Source of the DNA: Pontixanthobacter rizhaonensis
GTDB taxonomy: Bacteria; Pseudomonadota; Alphaproteobacteria; Sphingomonadales; Sphingomonadaceae
DNA length: 64,000 nt
NCBI RefSeq assembly: GCF_012972675.1
Contig: NZ_JABCRE010000002.1
Location: 919,001-983,000 of the forward strand
Reading direction: 5' to 3'
This document shows positions 53,441 through 60,652 of this stretch, piece after piece. Position numbers and translations under genes: made by a program. Numbering within the stretch: the stretch's first letter is position 1; every line of letters starts with the position of its first letter. Below the pieces are notes generated by a model. The model saw only the letters and a program-made list of their open reading frames with translations. It did no database searches and was not told the DNA's origin.

Positions 53441-53767
53441 CTATTGCCCAACCTCTCCGTTCGTGTCGAGCGCAGTCGAGACACGGTCTGTTGGCGGCTT
53501 GGCAAGCCATGAAAGTCGGTCCCAATCTTGGGCGGCCAGCGCTTCTTTCTTTGCGCGAGACCACTTCTTTACCACCAGTTCGCTCTCCAGCGCTTCATAG
53601 CGCGTCGCAAATTCCTGCGTCCAGAAAAGTTCAACCGGAAGGCGCTTAGAGGTAAAGCCGCCATATTGGCCAGATTGGTGCTGAGCCAACCTCCGCTCAA
53701 GATTGTCCGTGTGGCCGGTGTAATACTTTCCGTCCGAGCATTTGAGGATATAACACCAGAAGGCCAT
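53441..53767 (-). CDS. GIY-YIG nuclease-domain protein (UPF0213-like)
   Basis: The 108-residue protein consists of one GIY-YIG domain (about 1-90). Strand motifs are CYILKCSDGKYYTGHTDNLERRLAQHQSG with the catalytic Arg, then ALESELVVKKWSRAKKEALAA with the Glu. Members of this small family are presumed structure-specific nucleases; the target is unknown. Residues 95-105 (VSTALDTNGEV region) are encoded by one arm of the palindromic repeat described at 53455-53485, so the original protein was probably shorter. It begins inside a yqeY-dnaG-rpoD string, 109 bases from yqeY. Confidence 0.82.
   Translation of the reverse strand: MAFWCYILKCSDGKYYTGHTDNLERRLAQHQSGQYGGFTSKRLPVELFWTQEFATRYEALESELVVKKWSRAKKEALAAQDWDRLSWLAKPPTDRVSTALDTNGEVGQ
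53455..53485. repeat. Single arm of a dispersed palindromic element
   Basis: The plus strand reads CTCCGTTCGTGTCGAGCGCA then GTCGAGACACG. Its first 29 bases match the right arm of the element in carA (55134-55218, reverse strand) with one difference (GCGCAG for GCGAAG). The matching half-arm of the palindrome is absent. It supplies the C-terminal codons of the GIY-YIG protein. Confidence 0.75.
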
Positions 53768-54329: not shown

Positions 54330-54530
54330 GATTCGGTCCTGTCAGAGTAATAATTCAGAAAGATGGCCCGAGGGCCGGCTCCTCGTCGAGCCCTTAATTG
54401 AGCCCTAAGTTGGGGATGCATTCGTAATAACGCAATATTTGCGCCTTGGACAGCTTGACGAAGGGCAGGGCACGCTTTAGCCGCCGCCTCTTAGCAACAT
54501 CGCCGTAATTCATGATCTCGGAGCGCCAAT

Positions 54531-55814
54531 ATGGCCCACGCCGCCACCACTCCTGCGCAACCTAAAGAAGCGACCGGAGTCCTCGTTCTGGCGGATGGCA
54601 CGGTCATTTGGGGAATGGGCTTTGGCGCGGCGGGTGATGCGGTGGGTGAAGTATGCTTCAACACCAGCATGACCGGCTATCAAGAAGTGATGACGGACCC
54701 GAGCTATGCAGCGCAGATCGTCACCTTTACTTTCCCGCATATCGGAAATGTCGGCGCCAATGGCGAAGATATCGAAGGCAATGTTGAAAGCGCCGTGGGC
54801 TGCGTGGTTCGTGAAGATGTCACCAAGCCAGCCAATTTCCGGAGCGAGCAGAACTTCACTGACTGGATGGCGGCGAATAACAAAATCGGCATTTCCGGGA
54901 TCGACACCCGCGCCCTAACGCGCCGTATCCGTATGTCAGGCGCGCCCAACGCAGTGATCGCCCATTCGCCAGAGGGGCAGTTTGATATCCCCGCCTTGCT
55001 CAAACGCGCGCAGGAATGGGCCGGGCTAGAGGGCATGGACCTCGCCCAGCGTGTGACGAGGGAAGGGCAGGAAAGCTGGGAGGGCGGCTATTGGACGCTC
55101 GGCGCGGGATATGGTCGGGCACCTTGGAAGAAACCTCCGTTCGCCTCGAGCGAAGTCGAGAGGCAGGGTAGCGAAGCGTCTGAAGATGTCTCGACTTCGC
55201 TCGACACGAACGGGGGTGAAGAGCTCCCCCACGTCGTCGCGATAGATTACGGCGCGAAGGACAATATCTTCCGCAATCTGGTGAAGGCCGGTGCGCGGGT
55301 GACAGTGGTTCCCGCAAAGACATCGCTGGAAGATATAGAGGCGCTGAAGCCTGACGGTGTTTTCCTGTCCAACGGACCGGGCGATCCGGCGGCGACAGGG
55401 GCCTACGCCGTGCCAGTGATTAAGGCGTTGCTTGATAAAGATGTGCCTTTGTTCGGCATCTGCCTCGGCCACCAGATGCTCGCGATTGCGGCGGGCGCAA
55501 AGACCACCAAAATGCACCAAGGCCACCGCGGCGCAAACCATCCGGTTCAGCGCGTGGGCGAGGGTTGGGGCGACACCTCGGGCCTTGTCGAGATTACCAG
55601 CATGAACCACGGCTTCGCAGTCGATGGCGACACTCTGCCCGAAGGCGTAGAGCAAACCCATGTCAGCCTATTCGACGGCAGCAATTGCGGCATCGCCGTG
55701 ACGGGCAAAAAAGCGTTTGGTGTGCAATATCACCCAGAGGCGAGTCCCGGCCCGCAGGACAGTTTTTATCTGTTCGAGAAGTTTGTGGGGATGTTGGGGG
55801 AAAGCGCTCAATGA
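54531..55814 (+). CDS. carA: Carbamoyl-phosphate synthase small (glutaminase) subunit, with palindrome insertion
   Basis: CarA releases ammonia from glutamine for CarB to make carbamoyl phosphate, used for arginine and pyrimidines. The 427 residues consist of the N-terminal CPSase_sm domain (about 15-160), a linker, and the class I amidotransferase domain with the nucleophile Cys in FGICLGHQMLAIA and the His/Glu pair in VQYHPEASPGPQD. Residues 202-229, just before VVAIDYGAKDNIFRNL, are encoded by an 85-base palindromic element and read FASSEVE...STSLDTNGG; this explains why the protein is longer than usual. The ATG at 54531 has GGAG eight bases ahead. The stop overlaps the next ATG in an ATGA. 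Confidence 0.95.
   Translation: MAHAATTPAQPKEATGVLVLADGTVIWGMGFGAAGDAVGEVCFNTSMTGYQEVMTDPSYAAQIVTFTFPHIGNVGANGEDIEGNVESAVGCVVREDVTKPANFRSEQNFTDWMAANNKIGISGIDTRALTRRIRMSGAPNAVIAHSPEGQFDIPALLKRAQEWAGLEGMDLAQRVTREGQESWEGGYWTLGAGYGRAPWKKPPFASSEVERQGSEASEDVSTSLDTNGGEELPHVVAIDYGAKDNIFRNLVKAGARVTVVPAKTSLEDIEALKPDGVFLSNGPGDPAATGAYAVPVIKALLDKDVPLFGICLGHQMLAIAAGAKTTKMHQGHRGANHPVQRVGEGWGDTSGLVEITSMNHGFAVDGDTLPEGVEQTHVSLFDGSNCGIAVTGKKAFGVQYHPEASPGPQDSFYLFEKFVGMLGESAQ
55134..55218. repeat. In-frame palindromic element inside carA
   Basis: The left arm CCTCCGTTCGCCTCGAGCGA (continuing AGTCGAGAGGC to 55164) is mirrored by the right arm, whose reverse complement reads CACCCCCGTTCGTGTCGAGC (continuing GAAGTCGAGACA). 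About 30 bases per arm differ at only a few positions, with a short central part between. It keeps the reading frame and adds about 28 residues to CarA. Confidence 0.9.
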
Positions 55815-56296
55815 CGATGATCGCTCTACTCTCCGCACCGCTGTTTTCTATTGCAAGCCTATCGGCTGCGCACACCGTTGCGGAGGTGCAAGAGGTGCCT
55901 GCGTCGCTCAGCGAAAGAGCGCAAAAATGTGTGGCCGATCACCGCGAACTGATCGACACAAACGAATTTAGCGCTGAGAACAAAATCAAACTTGCTTACG
56001 TGTTTACGGTTTTGGGCAACGACGCATCGAAGGTTGAGAACGGTATTGATGGCATCCGCCCGACAACCATTCAGCATGGCGCACCCTTCGCTTTTGCCGA
56101 CGTGCGCCGCAATATTGGCAGCACAAAACCGGGTAGCGGCACTCTAATGCTCGCTGAGGGGCAACTCGCTTACATCTACGTGCCCGAGGAATTGGAAAGC
56201 AAAGAAACCGCATTGGATGGCCTCAAATCAATGTGCACACTGTTCGACGATGGCATCCAGTTAGTGCTGGTTGATGCGAGTGTGCGGATCCTGTGA
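55811..56296 (+). CDS. Secreted protein of unknown function, coupled to carA
   Basis: The 161-residue protein has a probable signal peptide (about residues 1-20) ending near LSAAHTVA. A soluble domain follows with two cysteines (Cys40 in [20 protein letters not shown], and one in [10 protein letters not shown]) and the segment [22 protein letters not shown] do not recognise it. Its ATG overlaps the carA stop (ATGA) and it is followed by a second, degenerate carA 3' end. Hence it may have entered with a cassette that rebuilt the end of carA. Confidence 0.7.
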
Positions 56297-56298
56297 TC

Positions 56299-56388
56299 GT
56301 GTTCAGCGTGCAATATCACCCAGAGGTCAGCCCCGGCTCGCAGGATAGCTTTTATCTGTTCGAGAAGATTGTGGGAGGCTTGGGGTGA
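56299..56388 (+). pseudogene. Second, diverged copy of the carA 3' end
   Basis: A 29-codon frame starting GTG reads ...[20 protein letters not shown] and on to VGGLG, then TGA, matching the end of CarA at 55722-55799. By hand alignment 11 of about 78 bases differ, several at third positions. It has no body of carA before it. The following gene's GTG overlaps its stop (GTGA), exactly as the 55811 gene overlaps the real carA stop. It is a remnant or duplicate tail, not a functional gene by itself. Confidence 0.85.
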
Positions 56389-56747
56389 GTAAACTCGCTC
56401 CCAATCATTGGCGTTACAGATATGCCGCAAGGATGACGGACTTTTGGCCATTCCTAGCCATCCTTATGTTTGGCGGGATAATTGGTGCAATAGTACTTGA
56501 ACAACCATGGGTCGGGGTTGCTACGATTGTGCTCGCTTGGCCGTTTGTTCTCCCTGCCGCCAATCTTGGCTGCCATGACTGTGCCTACAATTTGTTTTTA
56601 CCTTACAGAGGCGCAAATTTTCCTGAGCATGGGGACAGTTGGACCAAATTCCATCTTCATGGATGGTTCAAGCCAATGACCATCCCGGAAACTTGCCCCA
56701 AATGCGGAGCGGAAATTTTGACAAAGCAATTTGAGAAAAAGGCCTAG
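56385..56747 (+). CDS. Small membrane protein with zinc-ribbon-like cysteines
   Basis: The 120-residue protein has two membrane helices (about 20-53). A cytosolic or periplasmic tail holds CHDC at about 60 and CPKCGAE near the C-terminus, two CxxC pairs that could bind zinc. I do not recognise the family. The GTG at 56385 overlaps the stop of the carA tail copy, and its own stop is one base before the carB ATG, so it is translated within the car transcript. Confidence 0.65.
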
Positions 56748-56748
56748 G

Positions 56749-59700
56749 ATGCCCAAACGTACTGACATTTCCTCCATCCTCGTCATTGGCGCTGGTCCGA
56801 TTATTATCGGGCAGGCGTGCGAGTTTGATTATTCTGGCACGCAGGCGATTAAGGCGCTGAAGGAGGAGGGCTACCGCGTCATCCTCGTCAATTCCAATCC
56901 GGCCACGATTATGACCGATCCGGAATTTGCCGACGCGACCTATATCGAGCCGATTACGCCCGAGATTGTCGCCAAGATTATCGAGAAAGAGCGCCCTGAC
57001 GCGGTGCTGCCGACGATGGGCGGACAAACCGCGCTGAACTGCGCCTTGTCGCTCGAATCGATGGGTGTGCTGGAGAAATTCGGCGTTCAGATGATCGGCG
57101 CGGATGCGGAGGCTATCGACAAAGCCGAAGACCGCCAGAAATTCCGCGATGCGATGGACAAGATTGGGCTTGAAAGCGCGCGCAGCGGCGTCGCGCATTC
57201 GGTCGAAGAAGCACACGAAATCCTCAAGCGTACAGGCCTGCCCAGCATAATTCGGCCCAGCTTTACGCTCGGCGGAACGGGCGGGGGCATCGCTTATAAC
57301 AAGGCCGAGTTTGAGAAGATCGTCCGCGACGGTCTCGACGCAAGCCCGACCACAGAGGTTCTGATCGAGGAATCGCTGCTCGGTTGGAAAGAGTACGAGA
57401 TGGAAGTCGTGCGAGACCGCGCTGACAATTGCATCATCATTTGCTCGATCGAAAATGTCGATCCGATGGGCGTGCATACGGGTGACAGTATCACCGTCGC
57501 GCCTGCGTTGACGCTGACTGACAAAGAATATCAGATCATGCGCAATGCCAGCATCGCTGTTCTGCGCGAGATTGGCGTCGAAACTGGCGGTTCCAACGTG
57601 CAGTTTGCGGTCAATCCCGCCGATGGCCGCTTGATCGTGATCGAGATGAACCCGCGTGTTTCGCGGTCGTCTGCCTTGGCGTCAAAAGCCACCGGCTTCC
57701 CCATCGCGCGCGTCGCGGCGAAGCTGGCGGTGGGCTATACGCTGGACGAGATCACCAACGAGATCACCGGCGCAACACCGGCCAGCTTTGAACCGACAAT
57801 TGACTATGTCGTCACCAAAATCCCGCGCTTTGCATTCGAAAAATTCAAAGGCGCGAAGGATGAGCTCGCCACGGCGATGAAATCCGTCGGTGAAGTGATG
57901 GCGATTGGCCGGAACTTCCAGGAATCGATGCAAAAGGCCCTGCGCGGGCTCGAAACCGATTTGGATGGCTTCAACCGTGTCGTGGAACTCGAAGGGGTCA
58001 ATCGTGATGTGCTGACCGGATCGCTTTCCAAACGCACGCCCGACCGTATTTTGAAAGTCGCACAAGCATTCCGCGAGGGGATGAGTGTCGAAGAGATCAA
58101 CCAGATCACCGGCTATGATACGTGGTTCTTGCGGCAGATCGAACAGATTATCGCGACCGAAAAGCAGATCGCGGCTGACGGATTGCCCGGCGATGCCGCT
58201 GGTTTGCGCCGCCTGAAGTCAATGGGCTTCTCCGACAAGCGGCTTGCGACATTGGCCGTCCGTTCTGTCGGTGTGGCTGGCGGTATGGGTGAAACTCAGG
58301 CCCGCCGGTCCGGATTGCTGCATGACGCGCTGCAAGCGATGGCCGGCGCGACATCAGAAACCGAAGTGCGCGATTTGCGTGAGAAGCTGGGCGTACTGCC
58401 CGTATTCAAGCGGATTGATAGCTGCGCCGCCGAGTTTGAGGCGATTACGCCCTATATGTACTCGACTTATGAAGCCCCGACCTTTGGCGAGCCTGAGAAT
58501 GAGGCGATGCCGAGCGACCGGCGCAAAATCGTCATTCTGGGCGGCGGTCCCAACCGGATCGGCCAAGGGATCGAGTTCGATTATTGCTGCGTTCATGCCT
58601 GTTTCAGTCTGGCAGAAGCCGGTTTTGAAACCATCATGGTCAATTGCAATCCGGAAACGGTTTCAACCGATTATGATACATCGGACCGATTGTATTTTGA
58701 GCCTTTGACTACCGAAGATGTGCTGGAAATCCTGCGGGTGGAGCAGCAGTCGGGCGAACTGGTCGGCGTGATTGTCCAGTTTGGCGGAATGACGCCGCTC
58801 AAACTGGCGCAAGCGCTGGAGGATGCGGGCATTCCTATCCTCGGCACCAGCCCTGACGCGATTGATTTGGCGGAGGACCGTGAACGCTTCGCCAAGCTGG
58901 TCAATTCTTTGAAACTGAAACAGCCTGACAATGGCATTGCCTATAGCCGCGATGAAGCCGCCGCAGTGGCTGCCAATATCGGCTATCCTGTCTTGCTGCG
59001 CCCATCCTATGTTCTGGGCGGCCGCGCGATGGAGATCGTCGATAGCGAGGCGCAGCTGGATGATTACATCAAAACCGCTGTGAACGTGTCAGGTGAGAGC
59101 CCGGTACTGGTCGATCAATATCTGCGCGATGCGATTGAATGCGATGTTGATGTGATTTGCGATGGCGAGCAAGTCGTTGTCGCGGGCGTAATGCAGCATA
59201 TTGAGGAGGCCGGCGTCCACTCAGGCGACAGTGCGTGTACTATCCCGCCATATTCGCTGCCATCTGACATTGTGGACGAGATGGAACGTCAGGCAGAAGC
59301 GCTTGCGATGGCGCTCGGCGTGCGCGGTTTGATGAATGTGCAATTCGCTGTGAAAGACGGCGTTGTGTATCTGATCGAAGTCAATCCGCGCGCGAGCCGC
59401 ACCGTGCCATTCGTCGCAAAAGCCATTGGTCAGCCAGTGGCGAAAGTCGCAAGCCGTGTGATGGCGGGTGAAATGCTCAGCAGCTTCCCCGCATTTAAGC
59501 GCGATTTGCCCTATATGGCGGTGAAAGAGGCTGTGTTCCCGTTTGGCCGTTTCCCTGGTGCTGACCCGGTTCTTACACCTGAGATGAAGTCTACTGGCGA
59601 AGTGATGGGCATTGATGCTGATTTCCCGACCGCGTTCCTGAAATCGCAATTGGGGGCAGGGGTCACTTTGCCGCAAAGCGGGGTCGTGTTTGTGTCGGTG

Positions 59701-60075
59701 AAAGAAGGCGACAAGCCGATTATCGTGCCAGCAGTGCGCACTTTGATTGAGTGCGGCTTCACTATTATCGCAACCAGCGGCACTCAGCGGTACTTGTCTG
59801 AGCAAGGCCTTCCGGTGGAGCGGGTGAACAAAGTCGCGGAAGGGCAGCCCCACATTGTCGATAAGATGATCGATGGGGAAGTTGCCTTGGTGATCAATAC
59901 AACCGAGGGTTGGCAAAGCATGATCGACAGTAAATCGATCCGCGCCACCGCCTTGGAAATGAAGATTCCATACTACACGACCGCCGCCGCCTCGCTGGCC
60001 ACAGCGGAAGCAATCAAGTCGGTAAAACCGAGTGAGCTTGAAGTCCGCGCACTCCAAGACTATTATAGCGTGTAA
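56749..60075 (+). CDS. carB: Carbamoyl-phosphate synthase large subunit
   Basis: CarB makes carbamoyl phosphate from bicarbonate, ammonia and two ATP. The 1108-residue protein has the two homologous halves. Each has an ATP-grasp synthetase part (first half [19 protein letters not shown] and [18 protein letters not shown]; second half [20 protein letters not shown] and [16 protein letters not shown]). A C-terminal allosteric MGS-like domain (about 950-1080) carries [16 protein letters not shown]. The ATG at 56749, the family start, has AAGG ahead and lies one base after the preceding gene. Confidence 0.98.
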
Positions 60076-60184
60076 ATAGACGCACTCTCCCGACATTGTT
60101 TTGCGGAAATGCGCTGTCCCTGTTGGACGGCACGGTACTGAATTGTCTCTTGGGAGGGGCACTGAAAGAAGATTGAGAGTTACG

Positions 60185-60652
60185 ATGGATAAGGTTCCAA
60201 TGCTCGCTGAGGGCTACGAAACACTGACTGCTGAATTGAAAGAACTTCGCGCGGAGCGTCCGCAGATTGTCGATGCCATCGAAGAAGCGCGGGCACATGG
60301 TGATTTGTCCGAGAATGCCGAATATCACGCGGCGAAAGAACGTCAGGGTCAGGTCGAAGCAATGATCGCTGACATTGAAAACAAAGTGACGCGCGCGCAG
60401 ATTATCGATCCAACGACATTGTCAGGCGATAAAATCGTATTTGGCGCGACTGTCACATTGCTCGACGATGATGATAAGCCAATTAAATATCAAATCGTCG
60501 GCCAAACGGAAGCCAATGCCAGCAAGGGCATGATTTCTTACAGCTCGCCCATTGGCAAAGCGCTGATCGGAAAAAGTCTGGGTGATGAGATTGAAGTCAC
60601 TGTGCCAGCCGGTGACAAGTTTTATCTAGTCGAAAAAGTCGAATATATTTGA
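60185..60652 (+). CDS. greA: Transcription elongation factor GreA
   Basis: GreA rescues backtracked RNA polymerase by stimulating cleavage of the nascent RNA. The 155-residue protein has the N-terminal coiled coil with the acidic tip ([28 protein letters not shown]) and the C-terminal globular domain with [23 protein letters not shown]. The ATG at 60185 has GAGAG in front. It follows carB on the same strand after about 110 bases. Confidence 0.97.

Follow-up and report, generated by a model that had tools for sequence, protein, structure and literature searches.

In Pseudomonas aeruginosa the carbamoyl-phosphate synthase operon reads carA-orf-carB-greA, and in Neisseria the spacing between carA and carB is variable. 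The locus analysed here resembles both in that carA and carB are separated by a gene or by variable DNA and that greA follows carB. To our knowledge, the reports on Neisseria and Pseudomonas describe neither frame-to-frame gene turnover nor displaced carA ends. The minimal mobile elements of Neisseria were reportedly described by Saunders and Snyder in 2002. In the part of one account that was available, such elements are gene units lying between conserved genes and incorporated solely by homologous recombination of the flanks (PMC3898611). A second point of comparison is the C-terminal displacement of Rhs genes, in which, according to the section consulted, a conserved body receives a new end and the old end, its orientation unchanged, comes to lie downstream (Jackson et al., 2009; PMC2935791). 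Homology-facilitated illegitimate recombination, which joins a homologous and a non-homologous junction, is known from laboratory transformation and conjugation, as far as the consulted excerpt reports (PMC3240628). As for the packing of genes in general, the portion consulted of a survey of gene overlaps gives co-directional overlaps for about 15% of gene pairs in most groups, the commonest overlap being 4 nt (PMC6728339).

The window, meaning the whole 64,000-nucleotide stretch that was analysed, was located in genome G000 (2.79 Mb, 4 contigs). It has the gene order carA-carB-greA, with a gap of 934 bp between carA and carB (Table 1). The reading frames follow one another in the order carA, ATGA, X, GTGA, a 31-codon link, GTGA, Y, one base, carB. 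Two of the overlapping starts had been pointed out in the sequence-only reading and are as it described them: ATGA at 55811 opens a 161-codon ORF (X), and GTGA at 56385 opens a 120-codon ORF (Y). A further start, GTG at 56293, lies across the stop of X; from it, copy 2 of the carA end is read in carA's own frame, and the stop of this short ORF, at 56388, overlaps the GTG of Y. On paper, the arrangement keeps carA whole and retains coupling for the 120-residue gene, as had been proposed, with both genes starting in 4-nt overlaps with a carA tail. A GGAGG six nt before the overlapping start is a feature of the congener-type carA tail and is retained in copy 2, and the duplex energy for the 18 nt preceding Y is -10.2.

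The two carA ends form an 85-nt direct repeat, returned by the repeat finder, in which 71 of 85 positions are identical (84%, 14 differences, ungapped, start spacing 586). The earlier description of about 78 repeated bases with about 11 differences proved exact, since 55722-55799 and 56308-56385 differ at precisely 11 positions. Elsewhere in the window, on both strands and with 54501-60200 excluded, the best ungapped match to the 85-mer was 42/85. Shuffled gap sequence gave a top ungapped score of 11 (20 and 25 shuffles), compared with 57 observed, and chance is therefore ruled out as the source of the repeat. Assembly error was likewise rejected, given that the copies differ at 14 of 85 bases.

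Table 1. Features of the carA-carB-greA region, in positions of the window.
Feature	Coordinates	Strand	Basis
carA, small subunit of carbamoyl-phosphate synthase	54531..55814	+	ORF list; sliding identity
Copy 1, 3' end of intact carA, apparently of incoming type (FEKFVGMLG, then ESAQ)	55715..55799	+	
X, 161-residue orphan protein	55811..56296	+	ATGA overlap with carA stop
31-codon link ORF made of copy 2	56293..56388	+	sequence; ORF-chain script
Copy 2 of carA 3' end, apparently displaced native type (VGGLG)	56301..56385	+	
GGAGG, Shine-Dalgarno-like, 6 nt before GTG of Y	56374..56378	+	
Y, 120-residue protein, presumed older slot gene	56385..56747	+	
carB, large subunit, ATG one base past Y stop	56749..60075	+	
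carB-greA spacer, control junction	60076..60184	+	

A different kind of repeat was observed further upstream, within carA. This is an inverted repeat at 55133-55217, in frame, with 29-nt arms that are 90% complementary. The linker that it occupies is about 30 residues long and has aligned sequence in only 5 of 81 relatives, and one arm is found again at 53459-53481, in the terminal part of the ORF 53441-53767. The inverted repeat seems to belong to a family of repeats that insert into coding sequences.

We compared the carA-carB junction between species, using one genome per species. carA was matched in all 148 genomes searched (the window's own included, a few matches being only weak), and the survey of the gap between carA and carB, hereafter the slot, covered 143 loci: the window and 142 relatives, one further locus without carB having been dropped. 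Across these loci the gap ranges from -1 to 2202 bp. The 135 slot proteins of at least 50 residues fall into 66 families, 43 of them singletons, a family count that is an upper estimate because some forward slot ORFs are antisense to a DUF559 gene. Turnover extends to the window's own genus: in the seven slots read there, no two carA-adjacent genes are of one family. G004 and G007 have the same second unit, a DUF559 gene in reverse orientation that follows a carB-start fragment. Gap G+C lies below that of the flanks in 117 of the 122 loci with gaps of at least 150 nt (mean -0.11). At the neighbouring junction, the carB-greA spacer measures 100-125 nt in all 21 genomes compared (the window's and 20 relatives), and no genes have been taken there. 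Our best reading of these sequences is that the junction of carA and carB is a slot that has repeatedly taken in small foreign genes, usually fitted in such a way that translation could run into carB.

The nearest named records in the carA scan come from Aurantiacibacter, Parerythrobacter, Erythrobacter, Tsuneonella, Qipengyuania, Novosphingobium and their kin. Among 80 named loci, 26 had no carB in the stretch read; 24 of these were records with non-sphingomonad titles, in which 3.2 to 4 kb were read behind carA, and the other two were sphingomonad contigs ending within 0.5 kb. Outside the family, carA and carB are often further apart.

As to what the slot carries, Pfam assigned DUF6680, RraB and DUF1508 to one each of ten slot representatives and gave no family for the other seven. 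None of the ten, out of 135 slot proteins, matched a PADLOC defence family at E 0.01. Several recurrent contents were seen along the way. A DUF559 nuclease-like gene lies reversed in the slot at L037, L040, L080, L090, L126, L161, L186 and L190, recognized by Pfam in L037 and by the same motif, by eye, in the other seven; at these loci the forward strand is still open and links to carB. One slot family recurs in six loci (L085, L091, L119, L162, L163 and L194), its L091 member being RraB-like (RNase E inhibitor family). L203 carries three consecutive slot genes with 1- or 4-nt overlaps, the last two of which are lipoprotein-like and apparently related by eye.

X appears to be secreted, judging by eye from its hydrophobic N-terminus. 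No relative of X was found at E 0.001 in 147 other relatives, and 396 other family genomes gave one weak 30% match only (G200, E 0.004). A peptide-pattern scan of contigs also returned none, a scan that covered near relatives and may have left out the window's own and very near genomes. X matched no Pfam family and no PADLOC model, and its one NCBIfam match fell far below cut-off. Y has two hydrophobic stretches and two CxxC pairs and is zinc-ribbon-like by eye; nothing in Pfam exceeded a curated score, and weak zinc-ribbon-like matches lay far below the curated scores. The sequence-only reading had suggested looking for relatives in which carA is followed directly by the 120-residue gene. No close copy stands in that position among the relatives; distant ones do, in G382 and G294 (24 and 23% identity; phmmer 2.7e-5 and 1.3e-4 in the 135-protein set). 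Y also has two clear relatives outside the slot, in G050 and G015. With relatives both in the slot and elsewhere, Y is therefore an ordinary slot-type gene that is not confined to the slot.

Differing units between the same conserved genes, here at most 66 families for 135 proteins at 143 loci, are what characterizes minimal mobile elements. The likeness, as far as the available part of the account describes those elements, extends to whole-gene units between the same two flanks, the lack of a recombinase and apparent exchange in the flanks (PMC3898611). The slot differs in that its flanks are consecutive cistrons of one operon, that its units mostly lie frame to frame, and that fragments of the flanks are kept as link ORFs; it was also compared between species, not strains. 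What seems to be new is that the units fit translation within a single operon and that pieces of the flanks are reused as links; among the open-licence papers listed by our searches, none describes the slot in its title or the start of its abstract.

The frame-to-frame arrangement was examined by following series of ORFs, each starting between -20 and +12 nt from the stop of the one before. An unbroken series leads from carA to carB in 112 of the 122 gaps of at least 150 nt, the other 10 being without one. Controls, which gauge the openness of the frames and not translation, connected in 8/122 cases for the reverse-complemented gap, 203/1220 for rotated gaps and 671/1220 after deletion of one base (7-55%). 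A narrower version of the series connects 108 of the 122 gaps and 2% of mononucleotide shuffles. A 4-nt overlap on the carA stop starts 90 of these 108 series, and 87 of them finish with a stop at -1, 0 or -17 relative to the start of carB. The window's series has spacings of -4, -4 and -4, followed by one base before carB, and so shows the overlapping or abutting frames of a coupled operon. Strong Shine-Dalgarno-like pairing (-6 or below) is scarce before carB: as raw fractions, it was found at 11% of carB starts, against 28% for slot starts and 16% for random places. Taken together, the frames fit a carB that would rely on ribosomes handed down from upstream, and such reliance would explain why displaced ends persist as links. 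By the same token, we infer that the link may be translated and that carB may depend on it.

The slot could also be a neutral dumping place, in an operon that tolerates insertions and whose ORF series represent the usual tight packing of bacterial operons. Small or single families, G+C-poor gaps and the seven of ten scanned proteins without a Pfam family would all suit such a site, and 4-nt overlaps are the commonest kind generally, in the part of the survey consulted (PMC6728339). However, the 112 of 122 open series include multi-gene ones with link ORFs and several that are antisense to DUF559, and they beat every control; moreover, the next junction, between carB and greA, is gene-free in 21 genomes. 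We regard neutral dumping as unlikely.

Among the six congeners with data, four (G001, G004, G005 and G007) have a carA ending in VGGLG, as in copy 2. Ranked by identity among the 142 relatives, G005, G004, G007 and G001 stand at positions 1, 2, 3 and 5 for copy 2 and at positions 68, 55, 85 and 67 for copy 1, the best match of which is a non-congener (G196, 78/85). Sliding identity along the window's carA shows a body that is congener-like up to about -90 and a foreign-like stretch over the last ~60-90 nt. In a tree of tails (84 columns, 52 rows, with 50 of the 142 relatives, chosen as the nearer ones), copy 2 grouped with the four congeners and one further row in a starred set (98/91), copy 1 was placed beside G196 (96/79), and the two copies were joined in 0 of 200 bootstrap trees. 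A topology test rejected copy 1 with the four congeners (p 0.034, the groups having been named after the data were seen); holding copy 2 with exactly G001, G004, G005 and G007 was worse and was not rejected (p 0.17). Measured against the majority sequence of the four congeners, copy 2 carries 12 base changes in 84 (7 being C>T or G>A) and 4 residue changes in 28, and all four congeners match the majority at every residue. On this evidence, copy 2 looks like the species' own old carA end, displaced and no longer serving the CarA protein. The other two of the six, G003 and G006, have a VGMLG carA end like copy 1; among the 142 relatives, G003 ranks 27 for copy 2 and 37 for copy 1, and G006 ranks 100 and 69. 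Not every congener therefore fits, and the difference could partly be an old polymorphism of the genus.

A second case comes from the wider family. A 30-residue carA-end query found a match in 376 of 397 family genomes, and two tails only in G000 and G307. The unbiased count of tail copies is thus 2 of 397 genomes (376 with any match), and the corresponding 2 of 143 loci is biased because G307 was taken in for its two tails. The search for other carA-tail copies at this site, suggested by the sequence-only reading, accordingly yielded one independent case among 396 other family genomes, and in the same direction. In G307, which belongs to another genus (g119), the order is carA with a FEKFV end, a 138-codon X, a displaced tail (FERFAG), a 126-codon Y and carB, and both X and Y differ from those of the window. 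The second tail lies in the carA-carB gap and, as in the window, forms a 31-codon ORF that overlaps the stop of X with its start and the start of Y with its stop; by ungapped cores, the fragment starts about 24 nt further in than the window's.

The lineage signal in G307 points the same way. FERF, as in the displaced tail, occurs in 8 of 9 congeners of G307, the resident carA end having FEKF. Over 45 nt, seven of the nine congeners are nearer the displaced tail by a margin of 1 to 4 bases (displaced/resident matches of 39/35, 36/35, 39/35, 38/37, 40/37, 37/33 and 36/35), one is tied and one is nearer the resident end. For the 142 loci outside G307, the mean is 34.7 matches to the displaced tail and 35.8 to the resident tail. 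The patterns in the window and in G307 therefore place the old end downstream and a new end on carA, apparently twice independently.

An old end lying downstream in the same orientation, as found in the window and in G307, is also the hallmark of Rhs displacement, where a conserved body acquires a new end. The gene here is carA rather than a member of the rhs family, and its copies are 84% identical rather than sharing an identical core. Compared with the part of the Rhs account that was consulted (PMC2935791), the carA protein is hardly changed and the cargo is a gene of its own, placed after the end. The old carA end is also an open link, not a silent tip, and the copies appear to come from different lineages.

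The two copies of the carA 3' end in the window might instead descend from an old local duplication. A tandem copy of the carA end would have arisen within the lineage, X would later have entered between the copies or grown from the spacer, and the resident end would have drifted or been converted toward another type. The codons TTT TAT are common to both copies and, by eye, rare in relatives, a sharing that could reflect common descent of the copies. The two congeners with a copy-1-like ending would suit a duplication as well, and an AU test on the 84 columns leaves the copies as one clade unrejected (p 0.21). Against this, none of the 200 bootstraps joins the copies, each copy has its own closest relatives, and G307, in another genus, has the same pattern of an old end downstream. 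We consider local duplication quite unlikely, and less likely than capture of a carA end together with X.

The main proposal of the sequence-only reading, that a unit made up of a new carA end and the 161-residue gene entered carA and pushed the old end downstream, is supported by the congener ranks, the switch near -90, the tree and G307. Its claim that the incoming copy came from another lineage is supported with caveats: copy 1 resembles other genera and is never joined to copy 2 in the bootstraps, but the AU result and the VGMLG ends of G003 and G006 weigh on the other side. The phylogeny of both tails, proposed as a check, is divided in the same manner, with the copies apart in the tree and their union as one clade unrejected. 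As to the donor of the carA end, the signal would reach as far as "not this part of the genus", and any closer placement would be conjectural.

Pieces of the other flank are found in the slot as well. A copy of the carB start lies inside the gap at 12 of 143 loci and at 4 of 39 further named loci, as ungapped matches of 26 to 124 nt, of which 13 of 16 begin at carB's first base. Flank matches in L023, L114, L199 and L203 were dropped as chance before these counts, the first three by position or score only (L023 scored 14, below threshold) and L203 with its sequence read. In L037, L040 and L167 the carB piece forms a link ORF; its start coincides with the end of X or precedes it by 17 nt, and its end has a 4-nt overlap with Y. 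In L048 and L059 it is fused in frame with the next ORF, which runs to carB. For six loci with carB fragments the direction of entry was compared: in 5 of 6 more relatives are nearer the resident carB start, and in G004 they are nearer the fragment; the fragments are decayed.

As a separate observation, a duplicated carB start is fused in frame with the following ORF in L059, L048 and L057, and in L059 and L057 the carB N-terminus is now lipoprotein-signal-like by eye (LSAC and LSGC). Such fusions offer a possible route of gene birth.

The general form of the scarred loci, carA followed by X, a carB-start or carA-end piece, Y and carB, is the outcome expected from a homologous junction on one side and a non-homologous one on the other. 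The foreign-type carA tail fits homologous exchange on that side, and the ragged ends suggest that the second side was non-homologous in the loci with scars. Homology-facilitated illegitimate recombination, with homology in carA and a non-homologous junction ahead of the old tail or within carB, could give the scars seen. That process is described from the laboratory in the excerpt consulted (PMC3240628), whereas at the slot it is read from end products. The term "cassette", used earlier in the sense of a fixed mobile unit, does not hold for this locus: the fragment ends are ragged and there is no recombinase gene, and the duplication is better seen as a single vestige of wider exchange at the junction. 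A reading in which an integrase-type element used the carA 3' end as its attachment site and restored that end with its own, as many elements do for the gene they enter, would account for a tail copy on both sides of X, but it is highly improbable and was rejected, given that the 934-bp gap holds no recombinase-like ORF (only X, the link and Y), that the fragment ends differ between the window, G307 and the carB-start cases with no fixed attachment core, and that a tail copy occurs in only 2 of 143 loci, a count already biased toward such copies.

The probable history of the locus, in our view, is the homology-guided capture of a carA end and X from another lineage, with the old end and Y displaced downstream and kept because translation of carB would depend on the relay. 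Foreign DNA bearing a carA 3' end followed by X would have recombined with the resident carA end, and on the other side, immediately upstream of the resident carA end, the junction would have formed without long homology. The product would be carA with a foreign end, X, the displaced native end of carA, the earlier slot gene Y and carB, with CarA left whole. The old end would have been kept as the 31-codon link from X to Y, together with the GGAGG before Y, and would remain because it is still doing a job. Ribosomes would then pass from carA to X, the link, Y and carB by termination-reinitiation. The recombination may have had one homologous and one illegitimate side, or may have been a single crossover with a small circle. 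If X and Y have functions of their own, these are a matter of inference.

How orphan genes enter genomes and persist in them is an open question. The slot offers a fixed site with conserved biosynthetic flanks and scars that record direction, so that arrival, displacement and translational continuity become directly testable. Small ORFs made of a neighbour's fragment may, by this example, be working links rather than pseudogene debris. We suggest, tentatively and with somewhat less than even confidence, that the carA-carB junction of Sphingomonadaceae may act as a coupling-gated trading post, at which an incoming gene would be kept only if it completes the ribosome relay, and where pieces of carA and carB would be reused as relay ORFs or, for the carB start, as new lipoprotein N-termini. 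If this is true, the operon would filter foreign DNA for intact, translatable genes and would help orphan genes to become established.
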